Assembly (NCBI GenBank): GCA_947589495.1 | Contig: CANQAK010000007.1 | Coordinates: 1-36,590, forward strand | Origin: an uncultured Bacilli bacterium | Lineage (GTDB): Bacteria; Bacillota_I; Bacilli_A; RF39; UBA660 | Reading direction: 5' to 3' | Length of the DNA stretch: 36,590 nt | Shown: in pieces, positions 10,636 through 36,136 of the stretch | Numbering within the stretch: the stretch's first letter is position 1 | How the letters are laid out: each line of letters begins with the position of its first letter | Position numbers and translations under genes: made by a program | Notes under the pieces: model-generated | The model's database searches: none | What the model saw: only the letters and a program-made list of their open reading frames with translations | Told to the model about the DNA's origin: nothing

Positions 10636-12237
10636 ATGAAAATTAAAAATCAAAAAGCTTATGTTATTATATCTTTTATTTTAGTAGTAGAAGTTATATG
10701 TGGCTTTTTAACCTACAAGATGGTTAGTAATAAAAAAGTTAAATTAGATAATGTTGTTCTAATTAATAATAAACAAGAGGAAAATACAGGTCAAATGTTT
10801 GCATTTATGCTTGAAACTAGTAAAGATAGTAATAAATATAATCAATCAGAGGAAAATACATGGCCTGGTAAAGGTTATTCTTTTAATCAAACAAAATCGG
10901 GATGTATGGATTCAGAAGGTCGAAAAATTGATGGAGAATTAAATTATATTGAAGAATCTAATACCGTTACTTTAAAATCTGCAACTACAGTTTTTTGCTA
11001 TTTATATTTTGATAATGAAGATGACTTGCCAGTAGTCGATAAAATAGAAAAAAGTGCAAGTACAGATACTACATTGACAGTAAAAGTTACTGCTCATGAT
11101 GATAATTTTAAAATTACAGAATATTATTATAAAATTGAAGATAAAGCAACAAGTATTGCTTTGACATCAACATTAGAAACAAATGATTTTGAAAAGGATA
11201 CTAGTAATACACATATTTTTAGTAATGTTAGCAAAGGAAAATCATATAATGTTTCTGTTTATGTAAAAGATGAAAAAGGAAATCAATCAGACACATTAAC
11301 TCAAGAAGTAAGAATGACTCCAGCAGCATTAGAAACTTTGAAAGGCAAATCAGACAGTGGATTAAGTGAAATTTTAGTCGGAGGAATGTATAGGTATCAA
11401 GGAACAGATGTAAATAACTATATATGCTTAAAAGAAGTAGGTCAAGCAAATTGTGAAGATAAAAGCGAAAACATGTATCGAATCATAGGAATCACCCCTG
11501 AAGGAAATATCAAAGTCATAAAACAAACAAAATATAATAAGGGAGGAACAACAACATTTAAATGGAATACAAACTATCATGATAACTCATCATCAAGTAG
11601 TGGTTATTGTGAGAAAAATGGTTGTCCAGAGTGGCCAGAAAGTGATATATATAAAGAATTAAATACAAATAACGATTCATTCTTAAGTAAATTGGCTAGT
11701 GATATACAGAACAAAATAGAAGATTGGGAATGGTATTATGGAGATATAGCATATGATTATGCAAATAAAACAGCAGAAGAAATATATAAAATAGAAATAG
11801 GCCAAGCAAATACACAATATTATGGAAAAACATCATCAAATACAAATTTAGTAACAGATCAAAAATGGCAAAAAATGAATAAAACAGCCAAAATAGGATT
11901 AATATATTTACATGATTATTATTACCAATCAACATCAAATAACTGTCATTATAATAACAATACATATACACAATGTAAAGAAGGAGGCTGGATGCACATA
12001 TCAAAAAATAATAGTTCATTATCTGGTAACGAGCAATATGAATGGACCATGTCGCGTATAGGTCGGCATAGTAGCTCAGGTCCTTACTTCTTTGCGTGGA
12101 GTGTGATTTCGAGCGGCAATGTCAACCACAACTACTTGAACGCTACGTTTGCGGTTCGCCCAGTCTTCTATCTGAAGTCTAATGTAGAATTAGAAGGAGA
12201 AGGAACAACAAAAAGTCCATTCTACATAAAAAGTTAG
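10636..12237 (+). CDS. DGR target protein 1 (N-terminally anchored, FN3/Ig-like segment, C-terminal ligand-binding-like domain carrying VR1)
   Basis: N-terminal TM, C-terminal '...MYRIIGITPEGNIKVIKQTKY...EWTMSRIGRHSSSGPYFFAWSVISSGNVNHNYLNATFAVRPVFYLKS'. C-terminal coding segment matches TR with A-only substitutions. Confidence 0.92.
   Translation: MKIKNQKAYVIISFILVVEVICGFLTYKMVSNKKVKLDNVVLINNKQEENTGQMFAFMLETSKDSNKYNQSEENTWPGKGYSFNQTKSGCMDSEGRKIDGELNYIEESNTVTLKSATTVFCYLYFDNEDDLPVVDKIEKSASTDTTLTVKVTAHDDNFKITEYYYKIEDKATSIALTSTLETNDFEKDTSNTHIFSNVSKGKSYNVSVYVKDEKGNQSDTLTQEVRMTPAALETLKGKSDSGLSEILVGGMYRYQGTDVNNYICLKEVGQANCEDKSENMYRIIGITPEGNIKVIKQTKYNKGGTTTFKWNTNYHDNSSSSSGYCEKNGCPEWPESDIYKELNTNNDSFLSKLASDIQNKIEDWEWYYGDIAYDYANKTAEEIYKIEIGQANTQYYGKTSSNTNLVTDQKWQKMNKTAKIGLIYLHDYYYQSTSNNCHYNNNTYTQCKEGGWMHISKNNSSLSGNEQYEWTMSRIGRHSSSGPYFFAWSVISSGNVNHNYLNATFAVRPVFYLKSNVELEGEGTTKSPFYIKS
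12051..12163 (+). repeat. DGR variable repeat VR1 (113 bp) ending at IMH-like CGCCCAGtcttctat
   Basis: Hand alignment to 12374-12486: same length, 15 mismatches, every one at a TR adenine. Confidence 0.95.
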
Positions 12238-12373: not shown

Positions 12374-12486
12374 GTCGCGTATAGGTCGGAATAGTAGCTC
12401 AAGTACTAACTTCAATGCGTGGAATGTGAATTCGAACGGCAATGTCAACAACAACAACTTGAACAATACGAATGCGGTTCGCCCAG
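12374..12486 (+). repeat. DGR template repeat (TR), 113 bp, Asn-codon (AAC/AAT) rich, followed by IMH*-like cgcccagCCCACTAT
   Basis: Non-coding intergenic copy of the VR; holds A where VR1 has C/G/T; diverges from the VR flank directly after CGCCCAG (cccactat vs tcttctat). Confidence 0.95.
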
Positions 12487-12576
12487 CCCACTATAACTTG
12501 AAAGATAATATGGTTACGGCTATATTTTTGGGAAGATAGAGGACAAAGATTATCTAGGAATTTATTCCAAAGTGAA

Positions 12577-12762: not shown

Positions 12763-13149
12763 GTGGTCAAAATAAAAAAAGAGTTAATTGAACTCAGAAA
12801 ATCTGGCAAATTTTATAATACTTTTGGTGATGATGCGATAATTTTACATTACCTAATGGGTTACAGAATAGTGGCTGAAAAGGGTGGCGTTGGTTTTCCT
12901 GAAACAGCATATAATAAAGTTATTAATGCTTTAGAAGATGCTGAAATATCATATGTTGTATATGAAAAAGAAGAAGTAATTGCAGAAAAAAACTTCAAGA
13001 AATTAAACGATTATAAAAATGTTTTAAAAAAAGGAATAAATGAATTATCGTTAGAAGAAAGATTTAATAAAATTGAAAAGAAAATTCGTGGGTTAAATCA
13101 AAAAGAATTAGACTATGTTCTTGAAGTAATAGAAAATGCAATATCATAG
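12763..13149 (+). CDS. MutS domain I-like DGR accessory protein (MSL-like)
   Basis: 'SGKFYNTFGDDAIILHYLMGYRIVAEKGGVGFPETAYNKVINALEDAEISYVVYEK' resembles the MutS N-terminal mismatch-binding domain (GDFYE.F..DA...AGVP...); GTG start; overlaps next ORF. Confidence 0.72.
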   Translation: MVKIKKELIELRKSGKFYNTFGDDAIILHYLMGYRIVAEKGGVGFPETAYNKVINALEDAEISYVVYEKEEVIAEKNFKKLNDYKNVLKKGINELSLEERFNKIEKKIRGLNQKELDYVLEVIENAIS

Positions 13150-13492
13150 TGAAAAATTCTTAATTGTTAAAAATATAAAAAAATTTATTTTAGGATTAGA
13201 AACATTATTAGTTAATTTTCCCAGAAAGGAATTTTTAACTAAAGATATGGTTTATAAAGATGCTTTAAAAATCCTGGAATTAATTTATGTAGCAAATGAA
13301 GTAGAAGATATAGTTGAAAAAAGAAAAATTCAAGTAAAAATATTAAGTAAAATTAATATGTTGGATTTTTATTTAGAAAGAGCTTATAAAAGAAAATATA
13401 TAAATGAAAAACAATGTTTAGCTAAATCAAATGAACTTGAACAAATTACTAAAATGATATATAAATGGATTAAAAATGAAAGAGTATGTTAA
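13136..13492 (+). CDS. avd: Avd-like four-helix-bundle DGR accessory protein
   Basis: 118-aa helical protein 'IKKFILGLETLLVNFPRKEFLTKDMVYKDALKILELIYVANEV...KRKIQVKILSKINMLDFYLERAYKRKYINEKQCLAKSNELEQITKMIYKWIK', directly upstream of and overlapping the RT. Confidence 0.82.
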   Translation: MQYHSEKFLIVKNIKKFILGLETLLVNFPRKEFLTKDMVYKDALKILELIYVANEVEDIVEKRKIQVKILSKINMLDFYLERAYKRKYINEKQCLAKSNELEQITKMIYKWIKNERVC

Positions 13493-14603
13493 TTTAGAAG
13501 TTTTATTAAATTTATTTGAATTAGAAATATCAAAAAATGTTAAAAATAAACATAAAGTATACATGTTTGAAAAAAATAAGTTTCAAAATATTAATAGAAT
13601 TATTAATGTATTAAGAACTAATAACTATAATGGTGGTAAATATAATATTTTTTTAATAAAAGAGCCAAAACATCGTATAGTAATGGCTTTAGATATTAGT
13701 GATAAAATAATTAATCATTTTATAGCAAGATATGTTTTAGAAAGAAAATTATCTAAATATTTAGATATACGTAATGTTGCAACTAGAAAAAATATGGGTA
13801 CAGATTATGGAATTAAATTATTAAAAAAATATTTAGAACTTAATAAAAAATATGATAATTTTTATATATTAAAATTAGATATAAGTAAATATTTTTATTC
13901 TATTGATCATGAAGTTTTAAAAAATATGATTAAAGATAAATTAGATGATGAAGAATTTAATATGGTAAGTATTATTTTAAATAGTACTAATCAAGAATAT
14001 ATTAATAAAAAAATTGCTAATATTAAAGAAAAATATCTAAATTTACATCCTGAATATAAAAAAGAAATGGATGCTTTACCATATTATTATGAGGGTAAAG
14101 GATTACCCATAGGAAATATGACAAGTCAATTTCTTTCAATATTTTATTTATATGAATTAGATCATTATATAGTTCATGATTTACATATTAAACATTATAT
14201 AAGATATATGGATGATTTTGTTTTAATTCATCATGATAAAAAAGTATTAGAAAATGCTAAAAAAGTTATTGAAGATATACTTAATAAAAAATATAAGTTG
14301 AAACTTAATGCAAAAAAGACTAAAATAGTTAACGCTAAAGAAGGATTTTCTTTTTTAGGATATACTTATAAAATAGTAAATAAAAAAACTATAGTTAAAT
14401 TAAAAAAAGAAGCATATGAAAAAATAAAAAAGAAAGTTAAAAAAGTATATTATATGTATGAATCTGGTTATTTAGATTTTAATAGTGCTTTTTGTTCAAT
14501 TATGTCTTATTGGTATAATAGAAAATATGGTAGTCAAATGAAAGTAAGAAGAGCCATTAATAAATATTGGTTTTATAAAGAACATCATGCGTGTAAAGAA
14601 TAG
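13476..14603 (+). CDS. DGR reverse transcriptase
   Basis: 'LPIGNMTSQFLSIFYLYELDHYI' (DGR-type SQ motif) and 'IRYMDDFVLI' catalytic motif; 'LDISKYFYSIDH'; 375 aa with no maturase/endonuclease extension. Confidence 0.96.
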   Translation: MKEYVNLEVLLNLFELEISKNVKNKHKVYMFEKNKFQNINRIINVLRTNNYNGGKYNIFLIKEPKHRIVMALDISDKIINHFIARYVLERKLSKYLDIRNVATRKNMGTDYGIKLLKKYLELNKKYDNFYILKLDISKYFYSIDHEVLKNMIKDKLDDEEFNMVSIILNSTNQEYINKKIANIKEKYLNLHPEYKKEMDALPYYYEGKGLPIGNMTSQFLSIFYLYELDHYIVHDLHIKHYIRYMDDFVLIHHDKKVLENAKKVIEDILNKKYKLKLNAKKTKIVNAKEGFSFLGYTYKIVNKKTIVKLKKEAYEKIKKKVKKVYYMYESGYLDFNSAFCSIMSYWYNRKYGSQMKVRRAINKYWFYKEHHACKE

Positions 14604-14874
14604 ATATGTATTTATTAAAAGAACTTTTCCTAATACAATAGTAATTTTTGAAAAAAATAATGAATATAAAAGTTATGGTCAAGATAAAGAATTATTAGAA
14701 TATATAAAATTTAAAAAGTTAAATAATTTAAATAAATTAAAAATTAATTATATTGTAGTTAGGAATATGACTATTGTAAAACATGAAATATTTGAAAATA
14801 GTATGTATCAAATCTATTATACAAGATTTAATTTATTTAAATTAGTTAATTTAATTCGTCAACGAAGACGTTAA
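14587..14874 (+). CDS. Small basic ORF overlapping 3' end of DGR RT; unknown function
   Basis: 95 aa, start overlaps RT stop by 17 bp; RQRRR C-terminus; no family recognised. Confidence 0.6.
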   Translation: MRVKNRYVFIKRTFPNTIVIFEKNNEYKSYGQDKELLEYIKFKKLNNLNKLKINYIVVRNMTIVKHEIFENSMYQIYYTRFNLFKLVNLIRQRRR

Positions 14875-17023: not shown

Positions 17024-17149
17024 TATAGAAAATAGGATATATCAATTGTTTAGATTGACATTATTCTTTAATGATAAAGATAATGGCTTTTAATTTGTGT
17101 AAAATAAAGTACAATTTTTAAAAGTTAACAACAAAATAAAATTCGAAAC

Positions 17150-17176
17150 TTGACTCCGGGGGGGGTATTATATAAT
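17150..17176 (+). promoter_or_regulatory. Promoter with poly-G spacer: TTGACT-cc-G8-tatta-TATAAT (15-bp spacer)
   Basis: TTGACT 17150-17155, G8 17158-17165, TATAAT 17171-17176; duplicated upstream of the 34.87-kb target gene. Confidence 0.75.
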
Positions 17177-17195
17177 AACCATATAGGACAGAAAA

Positions 17196-17222
17196 GTTAA
17201 TAAATATGAGTAAGTTATTAAC
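17196..17222 (+). promoter_or_regulatory. Conserved leader inverted repeat GTTAATAA-N11-TTATTAAC
   Basis: 8-bp perfect arms; identical copy at 34819-34845. Confidence 0.6.
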
Positions 17223-17234
17223 AAAAAAGAAAAG

Positions 17235-19427
17235 GTGAATTATATAATGGAGAAAAGAAAAACAACAATAATATTTACAATTGGAGTAATGTTGATAGTA
17301 AGTACCTTTTTAATATGTCATAAACATACGGTATATCAAACACAACTAGATGAAGTAAAGTTAAAAGATGTAGTAAATAAAGAACAAAATAATATGTTTG
17401 CCATAATGTTACAAGATGAAAATGGTGAATATAAACAAACTAATGATAGTAATTTTCCAACAGATGGATATAATTATAATGCAGAAAAATCAGGATGTAT
17501 AGATTCTAAAGGATTAGCAGTAGAAAATGTATTAACATATACAAATAAAAAATTTAGTGTAAGAACAAATAAAGCAGTATATTGTTATGTATATTTTGAT
17601 AAAAGTAATGCAGAAGAATTATTAGAGCAATTAAAAAAGAGCGGTGGATTAAGTGATGCACCAGTTGGAGGAATGTACCGATACCAAGGAACAAATGCCC
17701 AAGTAAATAATTATTTATGTTTAGAAGGAAAATGTTCTTCTGGATCAGATGATATGTACAGGATTATAGGAGTAACACCAGAAGGAAATATCAAAGTGAT
17801 AAAACAAACAAGATATGGAAGTACACATGCATGGAATACAAAATATAGTGATGCCTCCTCGCCAACTAATATTTATTGTGGGACAAGTGGATGTCCCGAA
17901 TGGCCAAATAGTGATATATATAAAGAATTAAATACAAATAATGACTCATTTTTAAATAAATTATCTAATAAAATACAAGACAAAATAGAAGAATGGGATT
18001 GGTGGTATGGAGATATAGAATATAATTATGCAAAAAATTTAACAGGAGAAAATTTATATCAAATAGAAACAGGAGGAGAAGATAGTCAGTATTATTCAAA
18101 AACACAAACAGGACAAAGTATACAAACAGGTCCATGGCAAAAAATGAGTAATAAAGCCAAAATAGGATTAATATATTTACATGATTATTATTATCAAACA
18201 ACAACATCAACCAATTGTCATCTTAGTAGTTCAACATATACACAGTGTTTAAACAATGGATGGATGCATATGCTAAATAATGAAGGAGCAACATCATATA
18301 ACGAGCAATATGAATGGACTATGACACGTGTAGGTCGAGAGAATAACTCAAGTACTGACTTCCGTGCGTGGTTTGTGAGTAGGAACGGCGAAGTCAGTAC
18401 ACAAAGTTTAAATAGTTCGTATGCGATACGCCCAGTCTTCTATTTAAAGAATAATATAACATTATATGGAAGTGGAACAGTAAATGATCCATTCAGATTA
18501 ACCGAACCAACAGAACAAGAAAACACATTAAGAAGTAAAGATACAACACAAGCTTTAAGTCAAACTTTAGTCGGAGGAATGTATAGATATCAAGGAACAA
18601 ATAATGTAGTAAAAAATAATTATATATGTTTAGGAAGTTTAAATGATATAAATTGTGGAGATAAAAGTAATGAAATGTACCGAATCATAGGAATCACCCC
18701 TGAAGGAAATATCAAAGTAATAAAACAAACAAGATATCAAAAAGGAAGCACAAGTGGATTTGCATGGAATACAGCATATAATGCATCAAGTAGTGCAAAT
18801 AGTACAGATAGATGTGATACAAATAATGGATGCCCAGAATGGCCACAAGCAGAAATATATAATACTCTAAATACGGATTTCTATAATAGTTTAAATAGTG
18901 AAATAAAAGGAAAAATAGAAGAATGGAACTATATGTATGGAGATATAAGTCATGATTTAGTAAATAGTGACCATATAACAGCAGAACAAGCATATAAAAT
19001 AGAAAGTGGACAAGAAAATACAAAATATTGGGAACATCCATCAGTAAGTTATATAGAAAATACAAAATGGACAAAAAGTCAACCATCAAAAATAGCATTA
19101 ATGTATATACATGATTATGCATATTCGGGAAGTACAACAGGACATGAAACAAGTTGTAGAACAGACTATGATACAACATGTAAAGGAAGCTGGATGCATG
19201 AAACTAATAATGATAGTAATACATATCACGAATGGACCATGTCGCGTCTAGGTCGGGCTAGTAGCTCGAGCGCTACCTTCGGTGCGTGGGTTGTGCTTTC
19301 AAGTGGCCAAGTCGACAGCCCCTACTTGACCAATACGCGTGCGGTTCGCCCAGTCTTCTATCTAACGTCCGATATAGAACTTGGAGGAGCAGGATCAACT
19401 TCTGATCCATTCTACATAGCAAATTAG
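17235..19427 (+). CDS. DGR target protein 2, tandemly duplicated target domain with VR2 and VR3
   Basis: N-terminal TM; two copies of 'GGMYRYQG...MYRIIGxTPEGNIKVIKQTRY...CPEWP...EWTMxRxGR...AxRPVFYL'. Likely true start ATG at 17247. Confidence 0.92.
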   Translation: MNYIMEKRKTTIIFTIGVMLIVSTFLICHKHTVYQTQLDEVKLKDVVNKEQNNMFAIMLQDENGEYKQTNDSNFPTDGYNYNAEKSGCIDSKGLAVENVLTYTNKKFSVRTNKAVYCYVYFDKSNAEELLEQLKKSGGLSDAPVGGMYRYQGTNAQVNNYLCLEGKCSSGSDDMYRIIGVTPEGNIKVIKQTRYGSTHAWNTKYSDASSPTNIYCGTSGCPEWPNSDIYKELNTNNDSFLNKLSNKIQDKIEEWDWWYGDIEYNYAKNLTGENLYQIETGGEDSQYYSKTQTGQSIQTGPWQKMSNKAKIGLIYLHDYYYQTTTSTNCHLSSSTYTQCLNNGWMHMLNNEGATSYNEQYEWTMTRVGRENNSSTDFRAWFVSRNGEVSTQSLNSSYAIRPVFYLKNNITLYGSGTVNDPFRLTEPTEQENTLRSKDTTQALSQTLVGGMYRYQGTNNVVKNNYICLGSLNDINCGDKSNEMYRIIGITPEGNIKVIKQTRYQKGSTSGFAWNTAYNASSSANSTDRCDTNNGCPEWPQAEIYNTLNTDFYNSLNSEIKGKIEEWNYMYGDISHDLVNSDHITAEQAYKIESGQENTKYWEHPSVSYIENTKWTKSQPSKIALMYIHDYAYSGSTTGHETSCRTDYDTTCKGSWMHETNNDSNTYHEWTMSRLGRASSSSATFGAWVVLSSGQVDSPYLTNTRAVRPVFYLTSDIELGGAGSTSDPFYIAN
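18323..18435 (+). repeat. VR2, decayed 113-bp variable repeat
   Basis: Codon-by-codon alignment to TR without gaps; about 33 mismatches, ~16 at TR A and ~17 at non-A. Confidence 0.8.
19241..19353 (+). repeat. VR3, 113-bp variable repeat with IMH CGCCCAGtcttctatct
   Basis: Gap-free alignment to TR: 26 mismatches, 22 at TR A; IMH and following tcttctatct identical to VR1. Confidence 0.93.
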
Positions 19428-34772: not shown

Positions 34773-34799
34773 TTGACTCCGGGGGGGGTATTATATAAT
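34773..34799 (+). promoter_or_regulatory. Promoter with poly-G spacer: TTGACT-cc-G8-tatta-TATAAT (15-bp spacer)
   Basis: Near-identical to 17150-17176; G8 at 34781-34788. Confidence 0.75.
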
Positions 34800-34868: not shown

Positions 34869-36136
34869 ATGGAGAAGAAAAAGATAATAGTGTTAGCACT
34901 TACAGTAGTATTAATAATGTCAATATATATGACATATAGAACATATGAAAATAAACCAAAAGAATTACCAGAAGAAAAAGAAAAAATAGAAACAAAGAAA
35001 AAACAATTTGCCATGTATATAAAAGAAGGGGATAATTATGTAGAATATCATGGAGATGAGGGAAAAGAAAATTTATTTCCAGAAGGATATAAATTAAATG
35101 AAGAACAAAGTAGATGTGAAGATATAGATGGAAATAAAATAGATGATATAACATTTAATACAGATACAAATAGTATAACAGTAACAAGTAATAAAACTGC
35201 ATATTGTTATTTATATTTTGATAAAGAATTACCTAAAACATTGCAAACACTGCAAAGTAAAGCCAGTAGCGGATTAAGCGAAGGCTTAATTGGAGGAATG
35301 TATAGATATCAAGGAACAAATGATGTAGTAAAAAATAATTATATATGTTTAAAAGAAGCAGGACAAGCAAATTGTACAGATAAAAGTGATAACATGTATC
35401 GAATCATAGGAATCACAGAAGAAGGAAATATCAAAGTCATGAAACAAACAAAATATACAGATAGTGATGGTACAGATAAATTTGCATGGAGCACGAATGT
35501 TACTGATTCACAATGTGGAGAAAATGGTGTCCAGAATGGCCAAACAGCGATATATATCAAAGACTTAATGGAAACAATGGATTTATAAGTACATTAAATG
35601 AAAATATTAAAAATAAAATAGAAGCACAAAACTGGTGGTATGGAGATATGCATAATGATTTTGTAGGAACATTGAGTGCAGATGAAGTATACAAAGTAGA
35701 GACAGGACAAATGGATACAAAATACTATGGACATAGTTCAAGTGATAAAGCAGAAGTAACAAATCAAAGATGGACAAAAATGGAAGAAAAAGCCAATATA
35801 GGATTAATATATTTACATGATTATTATTACCAAGCAAAACAAGAAAGCTGTCATAATACAAAAAATAGTAATTATAAAGATTGCATAAATCAAGGATGGA
35901 TGCACATGAAAAATAACGGAGGAGGATCGTTAGATTACGAATGGACCATAACACGGTCCGGTCGATCGAGCGATATAGGAATTGGTTTTGGTGCGTGGTT
36001 AATCAGGAGTTATGGAAATAACGCTGCCAACTCCATGGAAGGAAGTGAGACAATTCGTCCGGTCTTCTATCTACAGTCTACTATAGAATTAGGTGGAGCA
36101 GGATCAACTTCTGAACCATTTTATATAAAAAATTAG
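34869..36136 (+). pseudogene. DGR target protein 3, frameshifted (ORFs 34857-35588 and 35513-36136), carries VR4
   Basis: Same domain as targets 1 and 2. A single T is missing in 'gaaaatggTGTccagaatgg' (35527-35530) relative to 'aaaaatggTTGTccagagtgg' of target 1; reading frame then continues to the C-terminus in the other frame. Confidence 0.8.
35950..36062 (+). repeat. VR4, strongly diverged 113-bp variable repeat
   Basis: 37 codons as in TR, keeps GCGTGG and a degenerate IMH (CGTCCGGTCTTCTATCTACAGTCTA vs CGCCCAGTCTTCTATCTGAAGTCTA). Confidence 0.7.

Follow-up and report, generated by a model that had tools for sequence, protein, structure and literature searches.

The window analyzed here, a stretch of 36,590 nucleotides from an uncultured Bacilli bacterium, raises the question of why a run of eight guanines lies between the -35 and -10 boxes of a promoter in a genome of roughly 25% GC. 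A preliminary description of this DNA proposed a phase-variable switch coupled to DGR hypervariation of the same protein. The promoter and the genes that it concerns are arranged as follows.

17123..17249, + strand: conserved upstream module consisting of a GTTAACAACAAAATAAAA block, promoter core, 5'-UTR, RBS, and start region; precedes 26 genes (BLAST, alignment)
17150..17155, + strand: -35 hexamer TTGACT, identical in 26/26 copies (pattern search and BLAST)
17156-17157, + strand: CC between the -35 hexamer and the G tract (sequence)
17158..17165, + strand: G8 tract in a 15-bp promoter spacer (sequence; alignment of 26 copies)
17166-17170, + strand: TATTA between the G8 tract and the -10 hexamer (sequence)
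17171..17176, + strand: -10 hexamer TATAAT (sequence)
17196..17222, + strand: inverted repeat GTTAATAA-N11-TTATTAAC in the predicted 5'-UTR (sequence listing, alignment)
17247..19427, + strand: target gene, 726 aa from the ATG at 17247, with an N-terminal TM segment and two tandem VR-bearing C-terminal-type domains
34773..34799, + strand: second poly-G promoter core, TTGACTCC-G8-TATTATATAAT, identical to the core at 17150 and upstream of a paralogous gene
34869..36136, + strand: paralogous surface gene after the second promoter copy, with a split reading frame (overlapping ORFs 34869-35588 and 35513-36136)

The core at 17150-17176 reads TTGACT-CC-GGGGGGGG-TATTA-TATAAT. On re-reading, the G8 tract between TTGACT and TATAAT and the 15-bp spacer (2+8+5) are exactly as first described, and the arithmetic by which G10 would give 17 bp (2+10+5) holds. 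The preliminary description named one G8 run only; the window has a second at 34781-34788. Four overlapping poly-G matches in the window correspond to these two separate runs and were reached in 0/100 shuffles, and dinucleotide shuffling gives an expectation of 0.13 runs of G7 or longer vs the two present. The frame break near 35513-35588 in the second paralogue is either genuine or introduced by assembly. The inverted repeat at 17196-17222 has largely conserved arms and a variable loop among the 26 aligned copies; an mRNA hairpin and an operator are possible roles for it.

Searches were extended to the organism's own assembly (1.11 Mb in 51 contigs, 88% complete), for which genome-wide counts rest on pattern searches. 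With the spacer length left free, CTTGACTCC-N4-20-TATTATATAAT is found at 26 sites, and the reversed-pattern control gave 0. These sites define class A, with the core CTTGACTCC-Gn-TATTATATAAT, in which the tract is G8 at 12 sites, G9 at 13, and AG7 at 1. A homopolymer thus lies between consensus-like sigma-70-type -35 and -10 boxes in a spacer of 15 or 16 bp, and its length differs among paralogues of a single genome. BLAST of positions 17118-17250 recovered the same 26 sites, 89-100% identical, and a single weak extra match, which means that the pattern, with its fixed boxes, had hidden no variants. Downstream of all 26 sites (26/26) lie members of one broad gene family. Their products have a short TM segment at the N terminus, then a variable central part and a C-terminal domain that carries motifs such as EWTMSRIGR and RPVFYL; frame breaks or contig ends cut a few of them short. 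Reading by eye of module genes and relatives showed N-terminal TM or signal segments, which suggest a surface location for the products.

A second promoter design (class B) is found in the same genome ahead of two other membrane or secreted gene families. Here the G tract touches the -10 box and spacers are 18-20 bp (G8 = 18, G9 = 19, G10 = 20). Specifically, TTGACA-ATTTTGATAC-Gn-TATAAT stands before four neighboring genes on contig C9, within 3.5 kb and between almost identical flanks, with n = 10, 9, 9, and 8; before two genes on contig C13 the promoter is TTGACA-TATTTGATAC-Gn-TATAAT with n = 9 and 8. Overall, every G8+ run of this genome lies in a promoter-like spacer: 25 in class A, 6 in class B, and one G10 run that is behind TTGACA and upstream of an ATG. 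Contig C39 carries two further class-B promoters with A-interrupted runs, GGGGGAGGGG and GGGGAGGGG; their spacers are 20 and 19 bp, lengths at which they are possibly locked.

We consider it likely that this surface-protein gene has a sigma-A-type promoter in which the G8 tract serves as a contingency (phase-variation) element, and that the promoter module is one of 26 copies. RNA polymerase needs a -35/-10 distance of about 16-18 bp. The G8 form of class A, at 15 bp, is predicted to be weak or off, with G9 and G10 giving 16 and 17 bp, and class B would approach from the other side, from 18 bp at G8 to 19 at G9 and 20 at G10. Slipped-strand mispairing in replication, presumably occurring in living populations, would lengthen or shorten the tract by one G and thereby shift the gene into or out of the usable spacing range, with promoter strength depending on tract length and display turning ON or OFF. 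If switching is independent at each paralogue, each cell lineage would display its own subset of the surface repertoire.

Spacer lengths address this reading directly. Ordinary promoters were represented by TTGACA-N-TATAATA in 12 congeners (n = 126). Their spacers are 15 bp in 3 cases, 16 in 34, 17 in 47, 18 in 25, and 19 in 2, indicating a working range of 16-18 bp and a peak at 17. The poly-G promoters (n = 406) are the matches listed in the organism's own genome, its genus, and its family, with a few single-copy rows left out; their spacers are 15 bp in 128 cases, 16 in 172, 17 in 15, 18 in 23, 19 in 44, and 20 in 8, with a few others. A spacer of exactly 17 bp occurs in 15/406 poly-G promoters (3.7%) vs 47/126 ordinary ones (37%), a difference with a Fisher p of 1e-20 when related copies are counted singly. 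Because copies are related, one mode per genome and class was also counted. The mode falls at 17 bp in 1/32 genome/class sets (p 1e-5) and in 1/14 genera outside the window's own genus (p 0.014). With lengths at 15/16 and 18/19 and 17 depleted, the tracts are at the positions where one base should matter most, and their length changes (15/16 and 18/19 vs 16-18) span the working range of the -35/-10 spacing.

Not all of the length pattern need reflect switching. Most classes have G8 more often than any other length, whether the spacer is then 15 or 16 bp, and in some classes nearly all copies share one length. Tract length may thus be due in part to a slippage equilibrium or to a fixed requirement, and not to ON/OFF tuning, and a 16-bp spacer may already be fully active. 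Near-uniform lengths are seen in several species (G8 in 33/38 copies of G021 and 15/16 of G030). Orthologous loci compared between species have mostly equal tract lengths, but their upstream flanks are only 70-93% alike and the comparison says little either way.

Relatives indicate how widespread and how varied these promoters are. Runs of G7 or longer are present in 37/38 genomes of the genus, with 1 to 57 in each. In most congeners searched with the promoter pattern the run is inside the spacer and its neighbors are species-specific. Spacer designs include TTGACACC-G-TATTA, TTGACACC-G-TAATA, TTGACTCTC-G-TATAT, TTGACT-G-TAATATTT, and TTGACAATC-G-AATAC, among others, and the -10 box of congener G003 is TATACT. 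Only the G run is common to the promoter classes; it lies 0 to 8 nt from the -10 box, between differing neighbors. More broadly, among 147 genomes sampled from the family at nearly one per genus, 30 have poly-G promoters (30/147, about a fifth of the sampled genera), and the reversed-pattern control gave 0. The examples read of genes after these promoters encode signal-peptide or TM proteins. Matches to the core pattern of the window itself in genome contigs from outside the genus were without the G run, and no copies of the module were found in scans of IMG/VR contigs, which were sought for strain variation.

One congener, G008, which has a DGR, carries six promoter-type runs and also 13 related genes in which the run is intragenic, roughly 25-37 codons into the coding sequence (G9 in 12, G10 in one). 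Use of such a run as either a promoter spacer or a coding tract is easiest explained as a slippage device. In 13/13 of the coding-tract genes the ATG frame ends soon after the run and a long ORF continues in another frame; these tracts are candidates for translational phase variation, although the lack of any in-frame copy among them counts against the switching reading.

An alternative, which we judge unlikely, is that a surface-protein regulon is co-regulated through the tract as a fixed recognition element, either an operator or the site of a special sigma factor, with length differences as tolerated noise. The core around the tract is indeed invariant within species, the 5'-UTRs of G000, G010, and G013 are unrelated, and the prevalence of G8 in most classes would also be expected of a fixed element. 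However, such an element does not predict the avoidance of 17 bp, and half of the copies in the window's own genome differ in length. Nor does it fit a site where the G run alone is common between classes, at 0 to 8 nt from the -10 box, and is found inside coding sequence in G008.

A neutral by-product appears very improbable. Duplication or gene conversion could have spread one promoter whose homopolymer drifts in length without function, and the module copies, related by duplication, are not independent. Their 89-100% similarity is in keeping with this, homopolymers slip in general, and an A run in the 5'-UTR likewise varies in length. The tract is nonetheless almost substitution-free: the alignment of the 26 modules contains one substitution in it, beside flank columns where as many as 9 or more copies diverge. 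Drift would also have to explain why a spacer G run recurs in independent architectures, both within the genus and beyond it, and why all G8+ runs of an AT-rich genome are confined to such spacers. An assembly artefact is scarcely credible: homopolymer lengths are unreliable in short-read MAGs, all genomes compared are draft metagenome bins, and many congener contigs end in or near the module, but the same architectures recur across many assemblies, which excludes the presence of the runs as an artefact, and lengths differ between distinctly flanked loci in long contigs (the G10/G9/G9/G8 series of C9).

Phase variation at the promoter leaves the second question, that of the DGR. The following features bear on it.

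10636..12237, + strand: DGR target gene adjoining the TR, with a VR at 12053-12169 and without a poly-G promoter
12376..12492, + strand: DGR template region (TR) (VR comparison; VR matches in own genome)
12763-13149, in the window: MutS domain I-like small protein, between the TR and Avd (PF01624, E 4e-5)
13136..13492, + strand: Avd-like accessory protein (NF033474, E 8e-9, below the curated cut-off; PF22296, E 8e-6)
13476..14603, + strand: DGR reverse transcriptase (RT) (PF00078, E 1e-16; congener relatives at 58-79% identity)
18325..18441, + strand: older or degenerate VR-like region in the first domain of the target gene (mismatches to the TR at 17/38 A and 18/79 non-A positions)
19243..19359, + strand: VR of the second domain of the target gene (mismatches to the TR at 23/38 A and 6/79 non-A positions)

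The RT lies beside the TR and Avd, and TR/VR differences are concentrated at TR adenines in the VR at 12053-12169 (mismatches at 16/38 A and 2/79 non-A positions) and in that at 19243-19359, where the enrichment has a Fisher p of 2e-9. The gene after 17150 is therefore a DGR target, as had been proposed. The MutS domain I-like protein is present at 18/20 RT loci fetched, with 32-86% identity to the window copy, and we take it to be possibly the MutS-like DGR accessory gene of the literature. A small ORF at 14587-14874 overlaps the end of the RT gene; it is found at 15/20 of the RT loci fetched and is without a Pfam match. A structure model of the target domain is too weak to assign a fold (pLDDT 62) and has no PDB fold match at E <= 0.001, and a PDB sequence search with this domain gave no match. 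The domain may be of the C-type-lectin-like kind expected of a DGR target; PF19789 matched at E 0.045, below the cut-off.

Specific coupling of the two systems was considered and rejected as a rule. The genome has TR-like VRs at 12 other full-length sites. The poly-G module is upstream of about half of VRs and absent from the others, including that of the TR-adjoining gene. Among the 26 module genes, the VR is within 7/73 non-A mismatches of the TR in 5 and intermediate in 4 (12-15 non-A mismatches); the others are more diverged or cut. A DGR RT match is present in 19/38 congeners and was not detected in the poly-G-rich genomes G005 (43 runs), G009 (38), G012 (33), and G010 (24); draft genomes may miss the RT. 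This partial overlap of VRs and module, together with poly-G genomes in which no RT was detected, indicates two systems that coincide on some genes without being obligately linked. Thus, the proposed phase-variable promoter gains from the 26 copies, the second design, the recurrence in the family, and the avoidance of 17 bp, and a specific coupling of that promoter to the DGR is not supported, given close VRs in 5/26 module genes and about half of VRs without the promoter.

With the tract read as a phase-variation element, the DGR would add protein-level hypervariation on a minority of module genes, so that the layers would meet without mechanical coupling. A broader picture is attractive, and we offer it tentatively, as somewhat less probable than not: a family-wide two-layer display in which uncultured gut Bacilli would hold large sets of surface receptors behind poly-G promoters at the 15/16 and 18/19 edges, mostly off, where rare one-base slips would expose one or a few members in each lineage and the DGR would rewrite the binding surface of some. 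Slippage would then choose the expression, and mutagenic retrohoming the sequence, of the same proteins. If so, a large and mostly uncultured family of gut bacteria would pick its displayed surface proteins by genome-wide poly-G slippage. Precedents are single genes in pathogens; here a genome has tens of such promoters, whose two spacings approach the optimum from below and from above, and spacing tuning thereby becomes testable by evolution alone and with ordinary read data. The DGR overlap on some genes would then be a natural combination of expression choice and targeted hypermutation.

Among open-licence papers, we found nothing on point about DGR targets with phase-variable promoters, or about a poly-G promoter device in RF39-type bacteria. 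Elsewhere, phase variation by poly-G in a promoter spacer is established, in agreement with the preliminary description. In Treponema pallidum, TP0126 (an OmpW homologue) has a poly-G between the -35 and -10 boxes and is transcribed best at 17 nt, and the tprL tract varies from G7 to G11 in vivo (PMC7864442). In Neisseria meningitidis porA, a poly-G lies between the -10 and -35 boxes, and shortening the 17-nt spacing abolishes transcription (PMC7864442). The promoters described here resemble TP0126, where box distance sets transcription, in the spacer poly-G, the box distance, and the surface protein. However, TP0126 and tprL are single genes of a spirochaete, whereas 26 + 6 promoters occur here in one gut Bacilli-type genome, in two architectures, one with spacers below 17 bp and the other above. 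The position of the tract between the -10 and -35 boxes is shared with porA, but porA is one gene with no DGR, and here the promoter module is common to a gene family. In Mycoplasma hyorhinis, the vlp gene family encodes surface lipoproteins, and the promoter of each gene contains a homopolymer prone to slippage. That homopolymer is poly-A, in few genes and with no DGR, in contrast to the poly-G found here. Finally, the RT, Avd, TR, and several VR targets changed at TR adenines are like those of multi-target DGRs in Treponema denticola and others; unlike in those known systems, some of the targets here are also behind poly-G promoters.
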